Of a stretch of DNA of 64,000 nucleotides, positions 14,916 to 56,409 are shown piece by piece. The notes beneath the pieces are model-generated. The model saw nothing but the letters and a program-made list of their open reading frames with translations. It was not told the DNA's origin and did not search any database. Made by a program: the position numbers and the translations under genes. This DNA is from Planctomycetota bacterium (GTDB taxonomy: Bacteria > Planctomycetota > Planctomycetia > Pirellulales > Pirellulaceae): assembly GCA_026692865.1 (NCBI GenBank), contig JAPLNI010000056.1, forward strand, positions 1-64,000. Reading direction: 5' to 3'. Within the stretch, counting starts at the first letter, position 1. Every line of letters begins with the position of its first letter.

Positions 14916-15140
14916 ATGGACGTCATCGAAAAAGAGATTGTCGATTATTTGCGAAATGCTTGTGGTGGAAATCCACGCACCAGCGATTCCCTTGCGCTGA
15001 TCGGCATCGATTCAGTCGGCATGGCCGAATTGACCTTCGAACTTGAACAACGTTTCGCGATCCGCGTCGATGACGATGTTTTAGATGTGGAAACGGTCGC
15101 TGATCTAGCTACTTACGTCCGCGAACGGAAAACTTCTTAG
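14916..15140 (+). CDS. Acyl carrier protein
   Basis: 74 residues. Ser33 in LIGIDSVGMAEL is the expected phosphopantetheine attachment site; the usual Leu after Ser is Val here. Flanking helices (MDVIEKEIVDYLRN, LTFELEQRFAIRVDDDVLDV, VADLATYVRER) fit the four-helix ACP fold and the protein is acidic. GAGGG lies about 12 nt upstream. It is not in a fatty-acid synthesis cluster; it ends in a 4-bp overlap with the convergent MMPL exporter gene, suggesting a specialised carrier for an acyl or lipid product. Confidence 0.85.
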   Translation: MDVIEKEIVDYLRNACGGNPRTSDSLALIGIDSVGMAELTFELEQRFAIRVDDDVLDVETVADLATYVRERKTS

Positions 15141-17809
15141 TCTGAATCGCGGTCGGAACACGCTACCAGGACCGGCAACCACCAGAGGTTGCCGACAAGC
15201 CCCAGCAGCATACAAAGGGCCGCGGTCGTTCCGAAAATAACTGTCGGAACAAATTCACTTGTCGCAAGCGATCCAAATCCAATCACTAAAGTCGCAGTCG
15301 ATAGCATGAGCGGCACACCGACTCGCGATTGGCAATCGAGCAGCGACTGCTGTACCGATTTTGTTTCCTCGCGACGTCGCGTGTACTGACAAAGATAATG
15401 AAGCGACGAATCGACCGACAAACCAAGTGACACCGCAGCAATTAAGGCTGCTCCGAGATTCATCTTCATGCCAATCAGCCCCATTCCAGCAAGGATTCCA
15501 AGCGAAGGTAACGTATTGGGAACCAACGCAATCAACGCGAGCGACCATTTCCCAATCGCTAATCGCAACGCAAGAGCAATCGCCAACGTTGCCAACGCAA
15601 AGCATACCCACTGATCACTCACGACGCTGGCCACAAGCGACGCAAGCAACACGTAGTAGCCGGTGACTTGAAAGTTTTCGGCTGAAACCAAAGGTTTCTC
15701 TGAGCCGTCGGCGCTAGACGTGGGTTCCCTCCGTAATCGCGATTCCAATGAACGGGGGGAACCCGTGGCTAGCGCCATCGGCTCAGTTTTCATTACACCT
15801 GAGGCGTTGGGCTCAGCAATTGCTTCGAGCCAACTGGGACTGCTGGTATGCGATTGGACAATTTGCGTCACTTCGCGAATCAACGCTTGCTTGGTATCCG
15901 TGCTTACATTTTCTTTTGCTCGCAACATGATCCGTAGCCGACGCGGTGATATAGAAGCCAGGCCTTCTTTATCACCTGAGCCGTGGGCGCTAGCCCCGGG
16001 TGCCATCGGGACAGACATGCTTCCGCTATCACTGGTGGCTATCGCCACCCGGTCTGGGAGTTGAGGTGTTAAAAGAGAATCATAGAAAGCTGGAATCGCA
16101 CCTCGCATTGCACCCAGTCGAAGCGTTGGTGTAAGTCGCGCGAGGATCGGTGAATTGCGAGCCGCAGCTTCTGCGCCAGCGAGACTTATGACTTTCGTAA
16201 GCCCAATATCAGAAAGCTCCGACAGTTTTTTATGGAGCGCGGCGACTTCTGCGAGGTACTCACGTGTGATTACTTGCGGAGCGGGAACAATGACATCCCA
16301 CACACCGGCTCCTCCCAAGTGCTCTTCCACTACGCGATACCCTTGTACAAGTGGCGAGCTGCTTTTGAAATTCTTCAAAAAATCCGTTTCCACTTCGACT
16401 CGCCAAGTTCCAATTGCTGTGCATAGGACCCAAACTCCTAGAAACACCCAGGTCCAAATCGGACGCGCGAGTAGAAACACCAAAAAACGTTTGAGAAGAT
16501 TTCCTAACCGATTCTCCAGCCGCGCGAAGCTCGCTGAATGTGCTGTCATGTTTAATCTACTTGATCGGACTGGCAACCCTAGCAGAACGATCCCTGGGAC
16601 GATAGCAAGTATTCCTACAAAAACACACACGGATGCAACCGCCATCATCAATCCATAGTCACGCACGGGCTCAACGTGAGCAGCCATCAATGCCATGAAC
16701 GCGATCGCAGTCGTTGCGCAAGCCCAAAAGATCGGTACGATGAGTTCTTCCAATGAAAAAGTCAGTGCTTCGATGCTGTTTGACTTCGCGGTTACGGAAG
16801 CAATGGTTGCAGAACGCATGGATGGATTCGCCGAATCAACATCATTTGGAAGATCAGTTTGCTCCTCGTTTTTGGAGCGTTGATATGCGACGAACCAATG
16901 CATACATGTAGCGATACTGATAACGGTAACCATCGCGACCAGCATCGAAGAAACCATCGTCAGTTGCCAGCCTGCTATTACGCAGATAGCTCGCGTCATC
17001 CACAGGGACCAGTACACTACGGCAAGCGTTGCAAGCGTCCATCGAATCGTTCGCAAAAACAGAACTAAGAACAGCGACAACGCAATCGCCGAAGTCCAAC
17101 CCAATCGAACGCCATCGTTTTCGATTAGATCAAAACCTTCTTCAACTAGCACTGGCTCGCCAACCAGATAATAGTTCGAGTCAGATTTGAAATGAGCGCG
17201 GGCATTATTCCTCAACGCACCGATCACCGCTCCATTGGATTGTTTCGTTTCACTTGGCTCTAATATGACTGCCAGAGCAAGCCAGCCTCCAGTGGACGAA
17301 TGTGTGTAGCCCACGAAGGTTTGACGCATCGCGACGGCTAACGGAGTGGTTCCTCGAATGCCGGTCAGAACTTTTCCATCGGCATTTGGTTTCGGGCGAC
17401 GCGAGAACAAACCGGCGATCCCCGATTCTGCCGACTCGACTAGTTTGTCGATCTGCGACAAATCCATAACGGCCCGGACACCTTGGCTACCGCGAATCTT
17501 GTCGCCCAACTCTCGAAGTCGCTCCATCGATTCGTTTGAACCGCTCCAGAATTGGTCATCCGAGTACACGATTAGAACCACTTCATTGCCACCAAAGGAC
17601 TGCTCGAGCAACTGATAATCGCTCAAGACCTTCGAGCCGCGTGGAAACATGCTTTCCAAGCGACGATCCAGCCGAAAATCCTTGCTAATCCAAGCAGCAG
17701 TGAGCCCGCTTGCGATTGCCAACGCCAAGAACAAGAAACGCCAAGCGACGACAAATCGAGGAAAGCTTCGAGAAAATTCTCGATAATCGGCGTTGATTGG
17801 TGACGTCAT
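15137..17809 (-). CDS. MMPL/RND-family lipid-type exporter
   Basis: 890 residues from ATG 17807-17809 (MTSPINADYREFSRSF); a longer frame reaches 17998 but overlaps the divergent gene's start. Typical RND plan: TM1 near residue 25-45, a large periplasmic loop, five TMs (LGWTSAIALSLFLVLFLRTI onward), then a repeat with a second loop and a terminal bundle including MNLGAALIAAVSLGLSVDSS. MMPL proteins, HpnN among them, move hydrophobic molecules by proton drive. The second loop (about residues 585-611 and 674-703) is lengthened by two in-frame palindromic repeats. Convergent with the acyl carrier protein and divergent from the reductase. Confidence 0.88.
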   Translation of the reverse strand: MTSPINADYREFSRSFPRFVVAWRFLFLALAIASGLTAAWISKDFRLDRRLESMFPRGSKVLSDYQLLEQSFGGNEVVLIVYSDDQFWSGSNESMERLRELGDKIRGSQGVRAVMDLSQIDKLVESAESGIAGLFSRRPKPNADGKVLTGIRGTTPLAVAMRQTFVGYTHSSTGGWLALAVILEPSETKQSNGAVIGALRNNARAHFKSDSNYYLVGEPVLVEEGFDLIENDGVRLGWTSAIALSLFLVLFLRTIRWTLATLAVVYWSLWMTRAICVIAGWQLTMVSSMLVAMVTVISIATCMHWFVAYQRSKNEEQTDLPNDVDSANPSMRSATIASVTAKSNSIEALTFSLEELIVPIFWACATTAIAFMALMAAHVEPVRDYGLMMAVASVCVFVGILAIVPGIVLLGLPVRSSRLNMTAHSASFARLENRLGNLLKRFLVFLLARPIWTWVFLGVWVLCTAIGTWRVEVETDFLKNFKSSSPLVQGYRVVEEHLGGAGVWDVIVPAPQVITREYLAEVAALHKKLSELSDIGLTKVISLAGAEAAARNSPILARLTPTLRLGAMRGAIPAFYDSLLTPQLPDRVAIATSDSGSMSVPMAPGASAHGSGDKEGLASISPRRLRIMLRAKENVSTDTKQALIREVTQIVQSHTSSPSWLEAIAEPNASGVMKTEPMALATGSPRSLESRLRREPTSSADGSEKPLVSAENFQVTGYYVLLASLVASVVSDQWVCFALATLAIALALRLAIGKWSLALIALVPNTLPSLGILAGMGLIGMKMNLGAALIAAVSLGLSVDSSLHYLCQYTRRREETKSVQQSLLDCQSRVGVPLMLSTATLVIGFGSLATSEFVPTVIFGTTAALCMLLGLVGNLWWLPVLVACSDRDSD
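15700..15786. repeat. Palindromic repeat D1 inside the MMPL gene (87 bp, in frame)
   Basis: Left arm CTGAGCCGTCGGCGCTAG...GGGTTCCC and right arm GGGAACCC...CTAGCGCCATCGGCTCAG form an imperfect ~30-bp stem around a ~27-nt loop. On the coding strand it is read as EPMALATG at the start and SSADGSE at the end. Length is 29 codons exactly. The arms match elements at 22574, 55174 and 56311. Confidence 0.85.
15976..16056. repeat. Palindromic repeat D2 inside the MMPL gene (81 bp, in frame)
   Basis: Left arm CTGAGCCGTGGGCGCTAGCC plus CCGGGTG; the right arm, GGTGGCTATCGCCACCCGGT, is more diverged. Read on the coding strand as VAIATSD near the start and APGASAHGSGD at the end, the same frame as D1 and D3. 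Exactly 27 codons. Confidence 0.75.
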
Positions 17810-17954
17810 TCTTGGATGTGCATACTTTTTAAGAGTGCCCGATTGCAAGCCTGTCGATCCGCCGTTCCACTGATAATAGTTTCCGCCAGATCGTTTCGAC
17901 GATGACTGAGTCGCTTCACCGCTAGGAATTGAGAGAAACCCACAAAAACAAAGT

Positions 17955-18932
17955 ATGCGAATCTTAATAACAGGTGCGACAGGTTTACTTGGTAACAATA
18001 TAGTCCGTCAAGCGATAGACGACGGGCATGATTGTGTCGTATTGGTCCGGGATAACGGCGTTCCGAAATCGCTTGAGTCGCTGAACGTTCGGATTGCTCG
18101 CGGCGAAGTGAACGATCTCGAATCCATACTTCAAGCATCGGAAGGTGTTGACGCGATCTTACATAGTGCAGCTTACCTTCATATTGGTTGGAAAAATCTT
18201 GAAAAATCGATGCACATTAATCGTGACGGAACGAAAAATATCGTTGAAGCCGCTCGAAAGAATCGATCACGTTTGGTTCATGTGTCCACAGTCAACACCC
18301 TTGCAATTGGCAACCGCGAAGGAACTATTGATGAAACGGCGACGCACGACGAACAGATCCCGTGTACTTATGTCGCTAGCAAGCGTGCTACCGAAAAAGT
18401 CGTTGTCGATGCCGTGAAGGAAGGGTTGGATGCCGTTATTGTTCATCCAGGTTTCATGCTCGGTCCATGGGATTGGAAACGCAGTAGTGGCCGAATGGTG
18501 ATCGAATGCGGAAAACTGTGGACGCCACTAGCTCCATCTGGTGGTTGCAGCGTGTGCGACGTCCGCGATGTTGCACGGGGGGTCTTGTCAGCACTTGAAA
18601 AAGGGACTGCGGGTCGTCACTACATTTTAGGGGGCGAAAATCTAAGTTACTTCGATCTATGGACCAAGATCGCATTAGCCTTTCAAAAACGCCCACCGAT
18701 TACGGTGATGCGTTGGCCAGCACGCTTTTTGGCTGGATCTATCGGTGATTTGAAAGCGAGCATTTCCGGAAAAGAATCCGATGTGAACTCAGCCGCACTA
18801 GCCATGAGCGCACAATTTCATTGCTACAGCAGCCAACGAGCTATCGACGAGCTTGGTTTTCAAATCCGCCCAGCCGACGAATCACTCCAAGCGGCCATTA
18901 AATGGTTCCGCGACGTGGGGTACATCTCGTAA
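17955..18932 (+). CDS. NAD(P)-dependent epimerase/reductase, extended SDR
   Basis: 325 residues. Rossmann motif MRILITGATGLLGNNIV (TGxxGxxG at residues 6-13), ILHSAAYLHIG, VHVSTVNTLAIG and the active-site YVASK pair belong to the extended short-chain dehydrogenase family, near dihydroflavonol-4-reductase or HpnA-like sugar epimerases (VIVHPGFMLGPWDWK). The C-terminal half (HYILGGENLSYFDLWTKIA) closes the substrate pocket. Divergent from the MMPL exporter, with the acyl carrier protein nearby, so a role in modifying an exported lipid is plausible but not shown. Confidence 0.85.
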   Translation: MRILITGATGLLGNNIVRQAIDDGHDCVVLVRDNGVPKSLESLNVRIARGEVNDLESILQASEGVDAILHSAAYLHIGWKNLEKSMHINRDGTKNIVEAARKNRSRLVHVSTVNTLAIGNREGTIDETATHDEQIPCTYVASKRATEKVVVDAVKEGLDAVIVHPGFMLGPWDWKRSSGRMVIECGKLWTPLAPSGGCSVCDVRDVARGVLSALEKGTAGRHYILGGENLSYFDLWTKIALAFQKRPPITVMRWPARFLAGSIGDLKASISGKESDVNSAALAMSAQFHCYSSQRAIDELGFQIRPADESLQAAIKWFRDVGYIS

Positions 18933-22034: not shown

Positions 22035-24377
22035 TCAATTCTGCGACTTTGGAAGACTCATCACTGCTTCCACTAACAAAGCGATGATAAGGATCATCAC
22101 GAACGTCCGCCATGATTCGCTTTGGAGATCATCGCGGCTTCCGGTTTGTTCTGACAAACGTTTTATCGGAACGCCCTCGAACAATCGATTCCAATCAGCC
22201 GTTTCAAGAGTTTTTGCTTCATCTTCCAATAGCGGACGATGCACGGAAACGAGCTTCGCACTCGCTCGAAATACGCCAGCGTGACTTTCAATTTGGTTGG
22301 AAAGAAATCGGTCGGTCGTTAGTAGCGGCTCCCATTGATCTCTAGATGGAAGACGCGAGCCGTTATTGGTCGTTTTAAAATCGTCTCCACTGGAAGATCT
22401 CGATTGTGCAATGTCCTGGACGATCGATTTGAGACTGCGAAGGCCTGACTCCAACGCTCTTTGGACAGCCACATACAAAACGACCCCTGAGGTGTAACCC
22501 AAGTTTGAAAAGTCCTCGGATGGAAAAGTCCCCCACATCACAGCTTCACCCTGGCTTGATGGAAAGCCACTCCCTGAGCCGTAGGCGCTAGCCTCGGGTG
22601 GCATTTGGTGAGTTGTAATTACGTCCACACCCGTGGCTATCGCCATCGGCTCAGGCTTTATTAACCCAGAGTCGCTGTGAAGAACGGCAAGAGATCCGAT
22701 CAGAATCTTTCCGTCGGCAAAGCTTGCGATCGGTTTCAGTTTATTCGCACTATTGATATCGACATTTTCTCGAACAGACATGGTGGCAAGCCTACGTACT
22801 TTCAGTTCTCCCATTTCTAACGAGGCACCACTTTGTGTTGATCGAAGTAAGCCCGTATCGGAAATCCAAGATGTTGGTGAGATTGGATCAGCCAGCGTGA
22901 GCCATTCTTCCCATCGGAATTGGCGAAGTGATGTTTGTGACGCTGCGATTTGTGAAATTACAAGACGATCGCTATTCGCATTTGGCTTCGGTGCAGCAAT
23001 TTGTTCTGCAATCAATTCTGGTGGGAAAAACCAAACGGTTCCTCCTCGTTTGATGAAGCTCTCGATCGCATCAAGTGATTTTTCATTCGGCAGGTCGGCT
23101 TGCCATACCAAGAATGCGACTCCATCAAGTTGTAGCTGATCAAAGAGGTTCGGCGTTACCGTACTGACCTCGGATTGAACATTTGCTTCGGACGGGGATT
23201 GGGCGGCGATCATCACAGGGAGAACATTAGCTACACGTTCCGAAACGATGAGTGTCTTTGCGATGGGTGAAACATCGACTGCAAAAAAGTCCTCGTTATC
23301 AGCTAAATTGCCATCGAGAGCCAATTGAACTCGCCCCCACGATTGACTCGATGAATTGCGATTACCAGCGTTTGTTGTGTCAGTTCCGTTGCGAGCTAGG
23401 TTGGAAACCGAACCAACGCGAAAGTCTTTTAGTTCGCCTCGTCCTGCAAGTATGTCTACTGAGACTTGTGTTTCGTTTCCTTGCCATGCAATTGTTACTG
23501 GAACGGTTGTTAAAGAGGATGCTGGGAGGACTGAGGCGGCGCTTGCTGTATCGTTATCGGTTGAAGTGTCTAGAACTAACATTGAAAGGAGTAGATCGAG
23601 CGAAACTTGTTTAGACGAATTGGCATCCGTGGCGGTTGGTACCCATCTCGCGTCGGTAACTCGGATCGCATAGTTTGAAGCAGGCTGTTCGGGGTATTCG
23701 ATCGATGTCCATCTGGTCGTTGTTTTTGCATCGCGGAGACGCTTTCGAATATCGCTCCAACGTGGTGAATCGACTTTGAAGTTGGTTGCTTGGAGATCCG
23801 ATACCATCCAGAGTTGAGCTTGACCGGGCTTTTCGCGATCGAGGTAAGCTATTGCCGATTCTATCATCGCAGGCCAGTCGCAAGCCGCATCACTTACTCG
23901 TAAATTCGGCGATTGAAGCAGAGAACTCGACGACGAAAAGTTGCTCGCTTTGAGAGAGTTGCTGTCTACCAAAACCCACTTTGACGCGTTGAACACAGCA
24001 AGTGACTTGGCGAGTTGGCTAAGTGCGGTTTTGTGCTTGGTAAGATCGTTCTGAGCGCCTGTTGCGAGCATGCTCGGCGAGCAGTCCACTAAGACAATCA
24101 CCGTATCGATATCACCACCACTAATCCAAGCCATCAGGCCCGACGAGATTGGTCGGCTGGCCGCTAAAATCAATCCAAGTACTGCGGCGACTCGCATGGC
24201 CAAGATCAACCAACTTCGCAGACGATCGAATCCTCGATCAAGCGTCTTTGCACGTAGCAGAAACATCATCGCAGCCCAAGGCTTGGTTTGATAACGCCAT
24301 TGATTCACCAAATGAATGACGATCGGAATCAATGCCAACGGAAGTGCGATTAAAAGCCATGGCTGTAGGAAACCCAT
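22035..24377 (-). CDS. BatA-type membrane protein with von Willebrand A domain
   Basis: 780 residues. The N-terminal BatA domain MGFLQPWLLIALPLALIPIV plus HLVNQWRY and a second membrane segment (LILAMRVAAVLGLILAASRP) are diagnostic. A VWA domain follows with the MIDAS-like VLVDCSPSMLATG. A long periplasmic part ends in one TM (FVMILIIALLVEAVMSL). Start overlaps the DUF58 stop (TAATG). Related operons encode MoxR-type assembly systems, but no MoxR ATPase is seen here. Residues about 574-601 are a palindromic repeat inserted in frame. Confidence 0.88.
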   Translation of the reverse strand: MGFLQPWLLIALPLALIPIVIHLVNQWRYQTKPWAAMMFLLRAKTLDRGFDRLRSWLILAMRVAAVLGLILAASRPISSGLMAWISGGDIDTVIVLVDCSPSMLATGAQNDLTKHKTALSQLAKSLAVFNASKWVLVDSNSLKASNFSSSSSLLQSPNLRVSDAACDWPAMIESAIAYLDREKPGQAQLWMVSDLQATNFKVDSPRWSDIRKRLRDAKTTTRWTSIEYPEQPASNYAIRVTDARWVPTATDANSSKQVSLDLLLSMLVLDTSTDNDTASAASVLPASSLTTVPVTIAWQGNETQVSVDILAGRGELKDFRVGSVSNLARNGTDTTNAGNRNSSSQSWGRVQLALDGNLADNEDFFAVDVSPIAKTLIVSERVANVLPVMIAAQSPSEANVQSEVSTVTPNLFDQLQLDGVAFLVWQADLPNEKSLDAIESFIKRGGTVWFFPPELIAEQIAAPKPNANSDRLVISQIAASQTSLRQFRWEEWLTLADPISPTSWISDTGLLRSTQSGASLEMGELKVRRLATMSVRENVDINSANKLKPIASFADGKILIGSLAVLHSDSGLIKPEPMAIATGVDVITTHQMPPEASAYGSGSGFPSSQGEAVMWGTFPSEDFSNLGYTSGVVLYVAVQRALESGLRSLKSIVQDIAQSRSSSGDDFKTTNNGSRLPSRDQWEPLLTTDRFLSNQIESHAGVFRASAKLVSVHRPLLEDEAKTLETADWNRLFEGVPIKRLSEQTGSRDDLQSESWRTFVMILIIALLVEAVMSLPKSQN
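22574..22654. repeat. Palindromic repeat D3 inside the BatA-type gene (81 bp, in frame)
   Basis: Arms CTGAGCCGTAGGCGCTAGCC plus TCGGGTG (22574-22600) and CACCCG plus TGGCTATCGCCATCGGCTCAG (22628-22654) pair over 27 nt with few mismatches around a 27-nt loop. Read on the coding strand as EPMAIATG at the start and PPEASAYGSG at the end. Exactly 27 codons; same frame and direction as D1 and D2. Confidence 0.87.
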
Positions 24378-25291
24378 TACATTCGACTTCCTTGCCTACC
24401 TGTTCCATTGAGTCTCGCGACTAGAAACTCCTTTAACGTCGATTCGACGCTTGCATCAATCGAGACACGCAGATAGTCCGTGCGAGTCTCCAAACAGGTT
24501 TGCTGAAGCGAAGAAAGAAACTCGTCGAGCGCGATATGATATCGCTCGCGAATATCGGATGGTTCGGCAAAGATCGATGCGTTCCCTTCCAAATCCGTAA
24601 AGCGGGTCGGGCGTTGAAAGTCGAACTGAAGCTCTTCGGGATCCATCAAATGAAACACGGAGACGTCATGCTTACGAAACCGCAAATGCTCGAAGCAATC
24701 TCGCCATAGTGACGGCTCAGCGAAAAAATCGGAGAACACGATCACCATCGCCCGCTGTAAAACAGTCTCCGCTAACTCATGCAACAGCCTTGGCAAGTGC
24801 GTTTCACCACCGGGAGTAACTTGCGAAACCAATTGCATCCAAGAAGCCAGATGAGCAGGATTCCGACGAGGCGGTAGTCGATGTGTGATTTCATTCGAAG
24901 CACATACCAGCCCGGCCGCGTCTCCTTGTTGAATAGTGAGATATGCGAGTGTGGAAGCCAATCGCGTCGCGTAATCCCACTTGCTCATCCCGACCGACCC
25001 GAAGCTCATCGACCCGCTGCTGTCCAAGATTAAGATACAACGCAAGTTCGTGTCGGCTTCAAATTCTTTTACGTAGAAGCGGTCCGTACGACCGTAAGCC
25101 CGCCAATCCAATCGCCGGAGATCATCTCCTGGAACATACTTCCGGTACTCCGCAAATTCTACACTCGATCCACGATGAGGACTCGTGTGCCGACCCGAGA
25201 CTCCACCAATCATCGCGCTGCGAGAAACCAATGGAATAGCCATTAGCCTCGCTGCGATAGTCGGATCAAAAAACGGGTACTGGGTTTGCAT
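24377..25291 (-). CDS. DUF58 domain protein
   Basis: 304 residues from ATG 25289-25291 (MQTQYPFFDPTIAARLMAIP), where homologs begin; an upstream ATG at 25336 with AGGA before it would add a hydrophobic lead and cannot be excluded. The DUF58 core is clear: HTSPHRGSSVEFAEYRKYVP, GDDLRRLDWRAYGRTDRFYV, KEFEADTNLRCILILDSSGS (a VWA-like Asp-x-Ser). Such proteins usually act with a MoxR AAA ATPase and BatA-type membrane proteins in envelope or metalloprotein maturation. Directly coupled to the BatA-type gene. Confidence 0.9.
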   Translation of the reverse strand: MQTQYPFFDPTIAARLMAIPLVSRSAMIGGVSGRHTSPHRGSSVEFAEYRKYVPGDDLRRLDWRAYGRTDRFYVKEFEADTNLRCILILDSSGSMSFGSVGMSKWDYATRLASTLAYLTIQQGDAAGLVCASNEITHRLPPRRNPAHLASWMQLVSQVTPGGETHLPRLLHELAETVLQRAMVIVFSDFFAEPSLWRDCFEHLRFRKHDVSVFHLMDPEELQFDFQRPTRFTDLEGNASIFAEPSDIRERYHIALDEFLSSLQQTCLETRTDYLRVSIDASVESTLKEFLVARLNGTGRQGSRM

Positions 25292-47676: not shown

Positions 47677-48825
47677 ATGAATCCCCTACAGGCTCGCAAG
47701 ACTAACTCTGTATCGAATCGTTCTCGGTTCGTTTCTCTCGTGGCAGCTGCGGTGCCCAAGTTTTTGACCCTGCTGACAATTGTCGCCGGGACATTTTTCA
47801 CTGGAATTTTGCCAGACGAGATTTTGTCAGTTGGGCTCGGTACAGTCGCTTCTGCTCAAGATTCCGAGCTACGCGTCGGAGGCGTTGCCGATTCAGGGCT
47901 TTCGGTTCCTGTGGCTCGCAGCGTACCAATGCTGCCGGCTCGAGAATTGGCTGAAGGGGTTCTGACTATTATTCCGCCAAGCCAAAACGCGAATGATACT
48001 GCGATTGGACCATTGAGCTTAGACTACGTTGCGAAACATCCTGAGCTGGAGTGGAGCGGACCCGGGTTTCCAAAGTCAGAGCCAAACTTTGCTTCGCGAA
48101 GTGAAACGCTACTGGAGATGGGCCGCGACATTACGCTTCGGCATCCTGTTTGGGGGCTCGAGTTTGCATTTAAACCGCTTCGAACAATCGAAGCAGATGT
48201 ACCGATGGCTTCTGGAAATATGCAACGCAAGCTTGTTTGGTACTTGGTTTACCGAGTGAGATACATCGGCGGCGATCTGCTTCCGAATCTAACTGTAAGT
48301 GAAGATGGGGAATCGATTCCCGAGCCTCCTAAGTCAGTCATCTTCAATTCAGTTCGATTCCTTCCGCGGTTCACGTTGACCGATAATCAGACCAAAGTCG
48401 CTCGCGACTCTCAGATTCTTGCAACCGTTATTCCCCAGATCGCAGCCAAAGAGCGTATCGGGAAGCCCATCTTGGATACTTTCCAGATTTCAAGGACGGA
48501 AATCCTTCCGAGCAACGGCGACAAAGACAATCCGGTTTGGGGAATTGCTACTTGGACCGATGTTGATGGTCGTGCCGATTTCTTGACAGTTCAGGTGAAA
48601 GGGCTCACGAACGCTTACCAAGTCAAAGTCGATTCGGCGGGCAACAACGTTTACAAGCGAAAAACCCTTGAGCTGCACTTTTGGCGTCCTGGAGATTCTC
48701 TTTCCCAAACACAGGACCGTGTTCGGCTGGGGGTACCCGCTTTCTTGGATTCATCCGAGCAGCAGTACGTTCTGAAGCAATTTGGTCTTGAAAAACGCCT
48801 TGATTATCAATGGGTTTACCGATAA
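47677..48825 (+). CDS. Exported protein of unknown function
   Basis: 382 residues from ATG 47677 (MNPLQARKTNSVSNRSRF), with a long hydrophobic lead (FLTLLTIVAGTFFTGILPDE) ending near VASAQ. The mature part has WGLEFAFKPLRTIEADVPM, RKLVWYLVYRVRYIGGDLLP, SVIFNSVRFLPRFTLTDNQT, VWGIATWTDVDGRADFLTVQ and KTLELHFWRPGDSLSQTQDR, a beta-rich protein conserved in planctomycetes as far as I recall, without a named function. It stands 108 bp before rpmA on the same strand. Confidence 0.75.
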   Translation: MNPLQARKTNSVSNRSRFVSLVAAAVPKFLTLLTIVAGTFFTGILPDEILSVGLGTVASAQDSELRVGGVADSGLSVPVARSVPMLPARELAEGVLTIIPPSQNANDTAIGPLSLDYVAKHPELEWSGPGFPKSEPNFASRSETLLEMGRDITLRHPVWGLEFAFKPLRTIEADVPMASGNMQRKLVWYLVYRVRYIGGDLLPNLTVSEDGESIPEPPKSVIFNSVRFLPRFTLTDNQTKVARDSQILATVIPQIAAKERIGKPILDTFQISRTEILPSNGDKDNPVWGIATWTDVDGRADFLTVQVKGLTNAYQVKVDSAGNNVYKRKTLELHFWRPGDSLSQTQDRVRLGVPAFLDSSEQQYVLKQFGLEKRLDYQWVYR

Positions 48826-55137: not shown

Positions 55138-55173
55138 GTAGCTGGTACTCACTCGTTCTGGGCTGATAAAACC

Positions 55174-55253
55174 CGAGCCGATGGCGTTAGCCACGATTTT
55201 CGATTTCGCCACAATTTTGCCGATAGCACCCGAGGCTAGCACCAACGGCTCAG
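55174..55253. repeat. Palindromic repeat family, intergenic copy D4
   Basis: Arms CGAGCCGATGGCGTTAGCCA (from 55174) and CACCCGAGGCTAGCACCAAC plus GGCTCAG (to 55253) resemble D1 and D3. It lies between the CpsD-like gene and the epimerase gene and is 80 bp long, so unlike the intragenic copies it is not a multiple of three. Confidence 0.78.
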
Positions 55254-56286: not shown

Positions 56287-56310
56287 GTGATTAGACCGGA
56301 TTATTCATAC

Positions 56311-56409
56311 CGAGCCGTGAACGCTAAACCCGGATTCCCCGAGTTAAACTTTCCAGCAATTCCAATATTAATCACAGTGCGTCACCCGTGGCTAGCGCCA
56401 TCGGCTCAG
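56311..56409. repeat. Palindromic repeat family, intergenic copy D5
   Basis: Left arm CGAGCCGTGAACGCTAAACC plus CGG (56311-56333) is diverged; right arm CACCCGTGGCTAGCGCCATC plus GGCTCAG (56383-56409) is nearly identical to that of D1 and D3. Located between convergent genes for the epimerase and RimO, where a hairpin could end both transcripts. Confidence 0.75.

Follow-up and report, generated by a model that had tools for sequence, protein, structure and literature searches.

Two palindromic repeats lie in frame within an exporter gene

We analyzed a stretch of 64,000 nucleotides of planctomycete DNA, hereafter called the window, in which the gene for an MMPL/RND-like exporter contains two palindromic repeats, D1 and D2 (Table 1). 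The start of this gene, an ATG at 17809, is inferred by homology; the stop-to-stop ORF (15140-17998, minus strand) is longer than the 890-residue gene and has D1 and D2 inside it. On the plus strand, an ORF that we take to encode an acyl carrier protein-like product (14916-15140) converges with the exporter gene and overlaps its end, and a presumably NAD-dependent epimerase-like ORF (17955-18932) starts just upstream of it.

An initial annotation of this DNA had described D1 and D2 as dispersed repeats inserted in frame in the second periplasmic loop of the exporter. Indeed, we found both to be dispersed repeats that are read in frame, are free of stop codons and have lengths divisible by three, and the residues that they occupy agree with those first proposed. 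A structural model places both between predicted helices 450-469 and 718-752, a region that we take, from what is known of RND proteins, to be the second extracytoplasmic porter region. The RNA fold of D1 has a z score of -9.2, and two other copies in the window reach -7.1 and -4.9, whereas the fold of D2 is no better than that of its shuffled versions (z = -0.24). In D2, the low-coordinate arm is the sole intact one. For the full D1 unit given in Table 1, we relied on two observations described below, the outer repeats that surround other copies and the gap seen in orthologous proteins.

Table 1. Position of the repeats and of the genes discussed with them. Coordinates refer to the window, except in the last line.
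Feature	Coordinates	Strand	Remarks
MMPL/RND-like exporter gene, host of D1 and D2	15140..17809	-	Pfam MMPL, E = 4.7e-8; 890 aa from inferred ATG
D1, 87-bp REP dimer	15700..15786	-	In-frame peptide TEPMALATGSPRSLESRLRREPTSSADGSE; residues ~585-612 of 890
Inferred full D1 unit including outer flanks	15675..15801	-	Flanks ...SGVMK / KPLVSA...
D2, 81-bp REP dimer, one arm decayed	15976..16056	-	Peptide about LPDRVAIATSDSGSMSVPMAPGASAHGSG; residues ~675-704 of 890
Third in-frame dimer	22574..22654	-	Peptide PEPMAIATGVDVITTHQMPPEASAYGSG; inside ORF 22038-24395(-) with BatA N-terminal domain
81-bp dimer	55173..55253	+	Outside called genes
100-bp dimer, one unit decayed	56310..56409	.	Outside called genes
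Y1 HuH transposase gene, ~170 codons	C24:48048-48536		Between dimers at 47941 and 48627

The repeats are dimers of a REP-like unit

The arm GAGCCGTGGGCGCTAGC has eight matches in the window at three or fewer mismatches, compared with 0.14 expected. D1 and D2 had been reported to share their arms with other palindromes of the window, as they do; these palindromes had also been described as intergenic, which fits the two dimers beginning at 55173 and 56310 and is wrong for the one that is read in frame in the ORF with the BatA domain. An alignment of 74 arms defines a REP-like unit consisting of CCTGAG, CCG, one bulged base, N-GGC, the loop GCTA, GCC-N'-CGG and GT. The 5' foot of each hairpin arm is CTGA, which stands before the stem. 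Positions N and N' covary: they are complementary in 68 of the 74 arms, and all four pair types (T:A, A:T, C:G and G:C) occur. The commonest dimer length is 81 bp, and others have lengths of 87-90 bp or of about 100 bp. A copy in a purL-like gene (L100:3536-6565, minus strand) has the palindromic spacer GGGTTCCCCCCGT..ACGGGGGGAACCC in common with D1, which points to a subfamily among some of the 87-bp copies.

Genic copies share one reading frame

An arm pattern finds 227 sites in the whole genome (G000, 5.55 Mb) and none when the pattern is reversed. A genome-wide search for the arm, scored by reading frame, had been proposed in the initial annotation; ours covered 1.90 Mb, about one-third of the genome, split into sample 1 (1.23 Mb, including the window) and sample 2 (0.66 Mb). 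Units were located with a weight matrix; a fuzzy regular expression gave too few copies. Sample 1 yielded 141 units and 49 dimers, and sample 2 yielded 70 units and 23 dimers; the control gave one unit in either sample. The resulting 72 pairs are all inverted, the units standing head to head to form the long hairpin that characterizes REPINs. According to a home-made gene caller, 32 of the 72 dimers (20 in sample 1, 12 in sample 2) are located in ORFs. The 72 exclude D2, which was scored as a single unit because one of its arms falls below the threshold. The frame statistics cover dimers only; of single units, sample 1 has 43 (17 in ORFs) and sample 2 has 24 (5 in ORFs). ORFs cover 88% of sample 1 and 85% of sample 2, yet only 32 of 72 dimers are genic. 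Genes are thus depleted of dimers, but not free of them, as expected if insertions that break a gene get lost.

All 32 genic dimers are read in one common frame, an agreement that is partly forced because the arms contain the stops TGA and TAG, and most of them encode a recurrent peptide of about (K)PEPMALATG-x-PEASAYGSG(K). The stops in the arms bear less on dimer length. It is a multiple of three for 30 of the 32 genic dimers, the exceptions being two 110-bp copies in L218, compared with 20 of the 40 non-genic ones (P = 6.7e-5). When all six frames are considered, 20 genic dimers have one open frame and 12 have two, compared with none in 20, one in 16 and two in 4 of the non-genic dimers, the stop-free reading of genic copies being in part a consequence of the ORF definition.

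We asked of each genic dimer whether both of its flanks score best of six in the frame that is read. This two-sided coding test is passed by 21 of the 32; the remaining 11 fail, partly through a short flank, and several of them are found near N-termini, the mfd copy included. The true genic number may thus be nearer 21. These copies would suit an artifact, in which the host frames are spurious ORFs or decaying pseudogenes, but we regard this as very improbable, since the exporter gene is strongly constrained outside its inserts, its frame is maintained in both species compared below, and conserved domains surround the inserts in tilS, acrB and other genes. Of the 20 sample 1 ORFs, 8 have Pfam domains that extend across the insert or lie beside it (amidohydrolase, AcrB, AMP-binding, PP-loop/TilS, CT_A_B, SpoU, GT4 and PSD); for TilS and CT_A_B, it is ortholog matches, rather than the position of a second Pfam stretch, that place conserved sequence on both sides. 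Dimers are found in acrB, spoU and purL and in genes for an AMP-binding enzyme and an amidohydrolase, and near the N-terminus in polA and mfd, where the mfd copy may precede the true start. One ORF contains a 129-bp unit three times in tandem and in frame (L217:9448-9786). Another array of three, with a period of 130 bp, lies outside called ORFs at C26:202881-203221.

Orthologs and empty sites reveal insertions

We compared the exporter with its orthologs, an alignment suggested in the initial annotation as a check on whether the peptides are insertions. A protein search found matches in 41 of 199 family genomes, and of the 39 that remain when the genome itself and a congener are set aside, we aligned 28 orthologs from other genera. 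The D1 and D2 peptides are absent from all 28, in which a gap or a short unrelated linker is found instead, and the loci of these 28 orthologs contain no REP unit above threshold. We thus dropped the idea that D1 and D2 are old features of the protein. The congener is a metagenome-assembled genome, G059; over 5826 bp, its contig and one from H1_MAG_00040 are identical. Both D1 and D2 are present and in frame in G059, whose exporter gene has 81% DNA identity to ours. Its better-kept D2 arm is the opposite one from ours. The exporter of this sister species has one TAG in the aligned frame, and its open frame starts downstream.

In two other genes, the sister species has retained the empty site. 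Its open frame for tilS encodes 351 residues, compared with 405 here, and that for a carboxyltransferase 388, compared with 432. At both sites (2 of 2), the DNA joins are clean, and the insert is bracketed by a repeat of 8-9 bp that the empty site has once; the tilS repeat contains one mismatch. By alignment ends, the total insertion amounts to 162 bp in tilS and 129 bp in the carboxyltransferase gene, both divisible by three, and the insert peptide is absent from 10 of 10 and 4 of 4 outgroup sequences, respectively. These are therefore real insertions. On the simplest reading of the sequences, D1 and D2 would have entered the exporter before the two species split and after their genus left the sampled relatives. 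We assign a probability of roughly 85% to the reading that D1 and D2 are copies of a transposed mobile element, a REP dimer, that landed in frame in the exporter before the split of the two sampled species.

Outer repeats suggest a larger mobile unit

The shorter dimers are often enclosed by outer inverted repeats, TGGGCTGATGAAAAC and GAAAAATGCCCTTTTCATCAGCCCA, one at either side. Measured against random DNA, the outer flanks exceed the 99th percentile for 23 of the 45 dimers that are 80-92 bp long, compared with 4 of the 27 longer ones. The outer repeat TGGGCTGATGAAAA is found at 67 genome sites with at most one mismatch (5 in the reversed control), and three outer-repeat pairs span exactly 118 bp, so that the full unit would measure about 120 bp. 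At two or fewer mismatches, sample 1 contains 47 matches to the outer repeat, of which 19 are located far from REP units (control 9).

Such terminal repeats are a hallmark of MITEs, and the mobile unit could be a MITE that belongs to a conventional DDE insertion sequence, generates target duplications and carries the REP dimer as a passenger. The enrichment and spacing of the outer repeats speak for this possibility, as do the direct repeats at both empty sites; moreover, flank repeats matching at 10 of 12 bases occur in 6 of 38 dimers, compared with 1.0 expected and at most 3 in any shuffle (seven tandem copies omitted). On the other hand, a strict test found no 8-of-9-base repeat at a fixed distance in any of 27 copies, a test that also missed the carboxyltransferase case; a looser one at 8 of 9 bases found 9 of 38, compared with 3.7 expected and a highest shuffle of 9. 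Both looser comparisons, at 10 of 12 and at 8 of 9 bases, are only suggestive. The genome-wide evidence on target duplication is thus mixed, and the length of the direct repeats seems to vary from 8 to 14. We recognized no autonomous element with such ends, in the 1.23-Mb sample or, as judged by match positions alone, genome-wide, and hence dropped the idea that the outer repeats mark a known insertion sequence. Bacterial MITEs resemble the present element in being short, in their outer inverted repeats and in having direct repeats at some insertion sites; they differ in that here we recognized no autonomous partner and that the target repeats seen at two of two empty sites have mixed support across the other copies. 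A MITE origin of the unit is thus possible, but we consider it the less probable route.

A class 3 transposase may have spread the units

A gene for a Y1 HuH transposase is situated between two dimers on C24 (Table 1). Its product contains the motifs NHVH and Y----Q (YVIDCQ), the latter fitting the published class 3 motif YV[VI][AENY]EQ (PMC6006769) only in part. Profile matches are weak (28.6 bits for Pfam Y1_Tnp; 23.4 bits for NCBIfam IS200, below the cut-off of 55). As reported in the available part of PMC6006769, class 3 TnpA-Y1 proteins are HuH transposases of about 170 residues with NHVH and Y----Q motifs, occur mainly in Planctomycetes, and are encoded by genes flanked by hairpins of high copy number with a CnGA foot. 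The CTGA foot of our units agrees with CnGA, and the gene on C24 has both motifs and is flanked by units. We thus infer, from position and motifs, that the units spread by the class 3 route. That part of the source makes no mention of intragenic translated copies or of outer repeats in connection with class 3 proteins. Six dimers (98-113 bp) and three single units cluster around the transposase gene (C24, ~33.9-57.7 kb; L093-L094).

A class 3 Y1 HuH transposase would mobilize, or would once have mobilized, the REP units in trans. Whether by this or by a MITE-like route, insertions that break a gene would be lost, and those that fall in frame in flexible loops could persist as translated additions that are nearly neutral. 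With about 9 bp of repeated target, the commonest unit (about 120 bp) would add 43 codons. Our best reading is that selfish REP dimers are probably tolerated as ballast in the predicted translation products, much like the palindromic elements of Rickettsia. It is tempting, if rather unlikely, to go further and regard the element as adapted to life within genes in this genus: an 81-bp dimer in a 120-bp unit, 129 bp or 43 codons once the 9-bp repeat is included, a single stop-free frame, a mild disordered peptide and tandem growth in frame in one ORF might all indicate that coding sequence is a regular niche of this selfish element.

The exporter inserts evolve almost neutrally

We estimated omega between the two species. 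It is 0.09 over the 790 exporter codons outside the inserts, compared with 0.63 in D1 and 1.55 in D2. An AlphaFold model of the exporter (10-row alignment, mean pLDDT 69) has pLDDT values below 50 at residues 585-620 and 667-711, which is unspecific, since four other segments also fall below 50 and the inserts have no aligned relatives. The MMPL inserts thus evolve almost neutrally and are predicted to be disordered, which speaks for tolerated ballast. Their low dS (0.18 in D1 and 0.25 in D2, from few sites, compared with 0.81 for the gene) speaks against it and is unexplained by a purely neutral insert. Gene conversion, constraint at the DNA level and recency are candidate causes.

Alternatively, the peptides could have been recruited to serve, for instance, as flexible linkers or interaction segments, and be kept by selection. 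This would account for the retention of both inserts across two species at a gene dS of 0.81 and for a D1 that differs at just 11 of 90 nucleotides, but it agrees poorly with the omega values, with the modeled disorder and with the presence of a similar peptide in unrelated proteins. We consider recruitment improbable; the omega comparison gives no clear sign of a selected function in the MMPL inserts. The initial annotation had suggested that a REP-like element contributes new peptide segments to planctomycete proteins. In a literal sense this is so, as predicted proteins would be lengthened by a recurrent segment of about 27-43 residues, whereas for the MMPL inserts a contribution to function finds no clear support.

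Relation to known repeat families

Intragenic REP dimers of the GTAG and CGTC superfamilies were described in 2013 (PMC3733652). As stated in the available part of that report, they code for 20-30 amino acids, with many in repair genes; O. terrae, of the PVC superphylum, has the most GTAG cases and leads together with R. conorii; some REP dimers lie inside outer palindromes; and, according to the abstract, both superfamilies reach Planctomycetes. Our element likewise lies in ORFs and codes for short peptides. It differs in its CTGA foot, our unit consensus having neither the terminal GTAG nor the CGTC by which those superfamilies are recognized, and in the one frame and recurrent peptide of its genic dimers. 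In the available text of PMC3733652, figures and additional files aside, the names Pirellula, Rhodopirellula, Blastopirellula, Planctomyces, Gemmata and Isosphaera are absent.

The comparison with Rickettsia palindromic elements drawn in the initial annotation holds as a likeness in behavior, not as membership based on sequence. These elements (Ogata 2000, 2002) are palindromic, are inserted in frame in unrelated genes and encode a conserved peptide, and nearly half of the copies first described are genic (available part of PMC10969869); another in-frame element is mentioned in PMC5656822. Insertion in unrelated ORFs in one conserved frame is what we found as well, with a planctomycete in place of an intracellular alphaproteobacterium as host. 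The element may accordingly be described as a CTGA-foot REP dimer that behaves like Rickettsia palindromic elements. In the accessible portion of the open-licence literature on planctomycete or Pirellulaceae REP or palindromic insertions, we found no description of it. Intragenic REP dimers were already known; what looks new is the present family, together with its host and the strictness of its reading frame.

The element thus provides, far from Rickettsia, a case of the same puzzle, in which a palindromic repeat invades many genes and yet is read through. Sister species offer orthologous sites with and without the insert, at which the fitness cost and the fate of the inserted peptides become testable. 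A large REP population, coding in part, may also be linked to planctomycete class 3 HuH proteins, which have been little studied. For annotation, PEPMALATG...ASAYGSG segments in these proteins should not be taken for domains.

Distribution in the family

At least one match to the arm pattern occurs in 67 of 199 family genomes, many of which have few matches, a number comparable to that of the reversed control; at least 10 arm sites are present in 19 of the 199. Homologs of the C24 transposase are found in 76 of the 199. They are present in 14 of the 19 arm-rich genomes and in 62 of the 180 others (P = 0.002, counted by eye and ignoring relatedness), and 5 of the 19 lack one. The correlation of arm sites with the transposase across the family is thus weak.

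We also sampled 0.25 Mb of G066, from another genus, where only 2 of 23 exact-pattern units fall within called ORFs; one of the two is near an N-terminus, and the other is antisense. We therefore dropped coding insertion as a general trait of this REP in the family: the habit is seen in this genus and was not observed in the sample from the one other genus. G066 as a whole has 594 arm sites and 62% G+C, and some of its units stand in tandem at 24-bp spacing (L163-L182).
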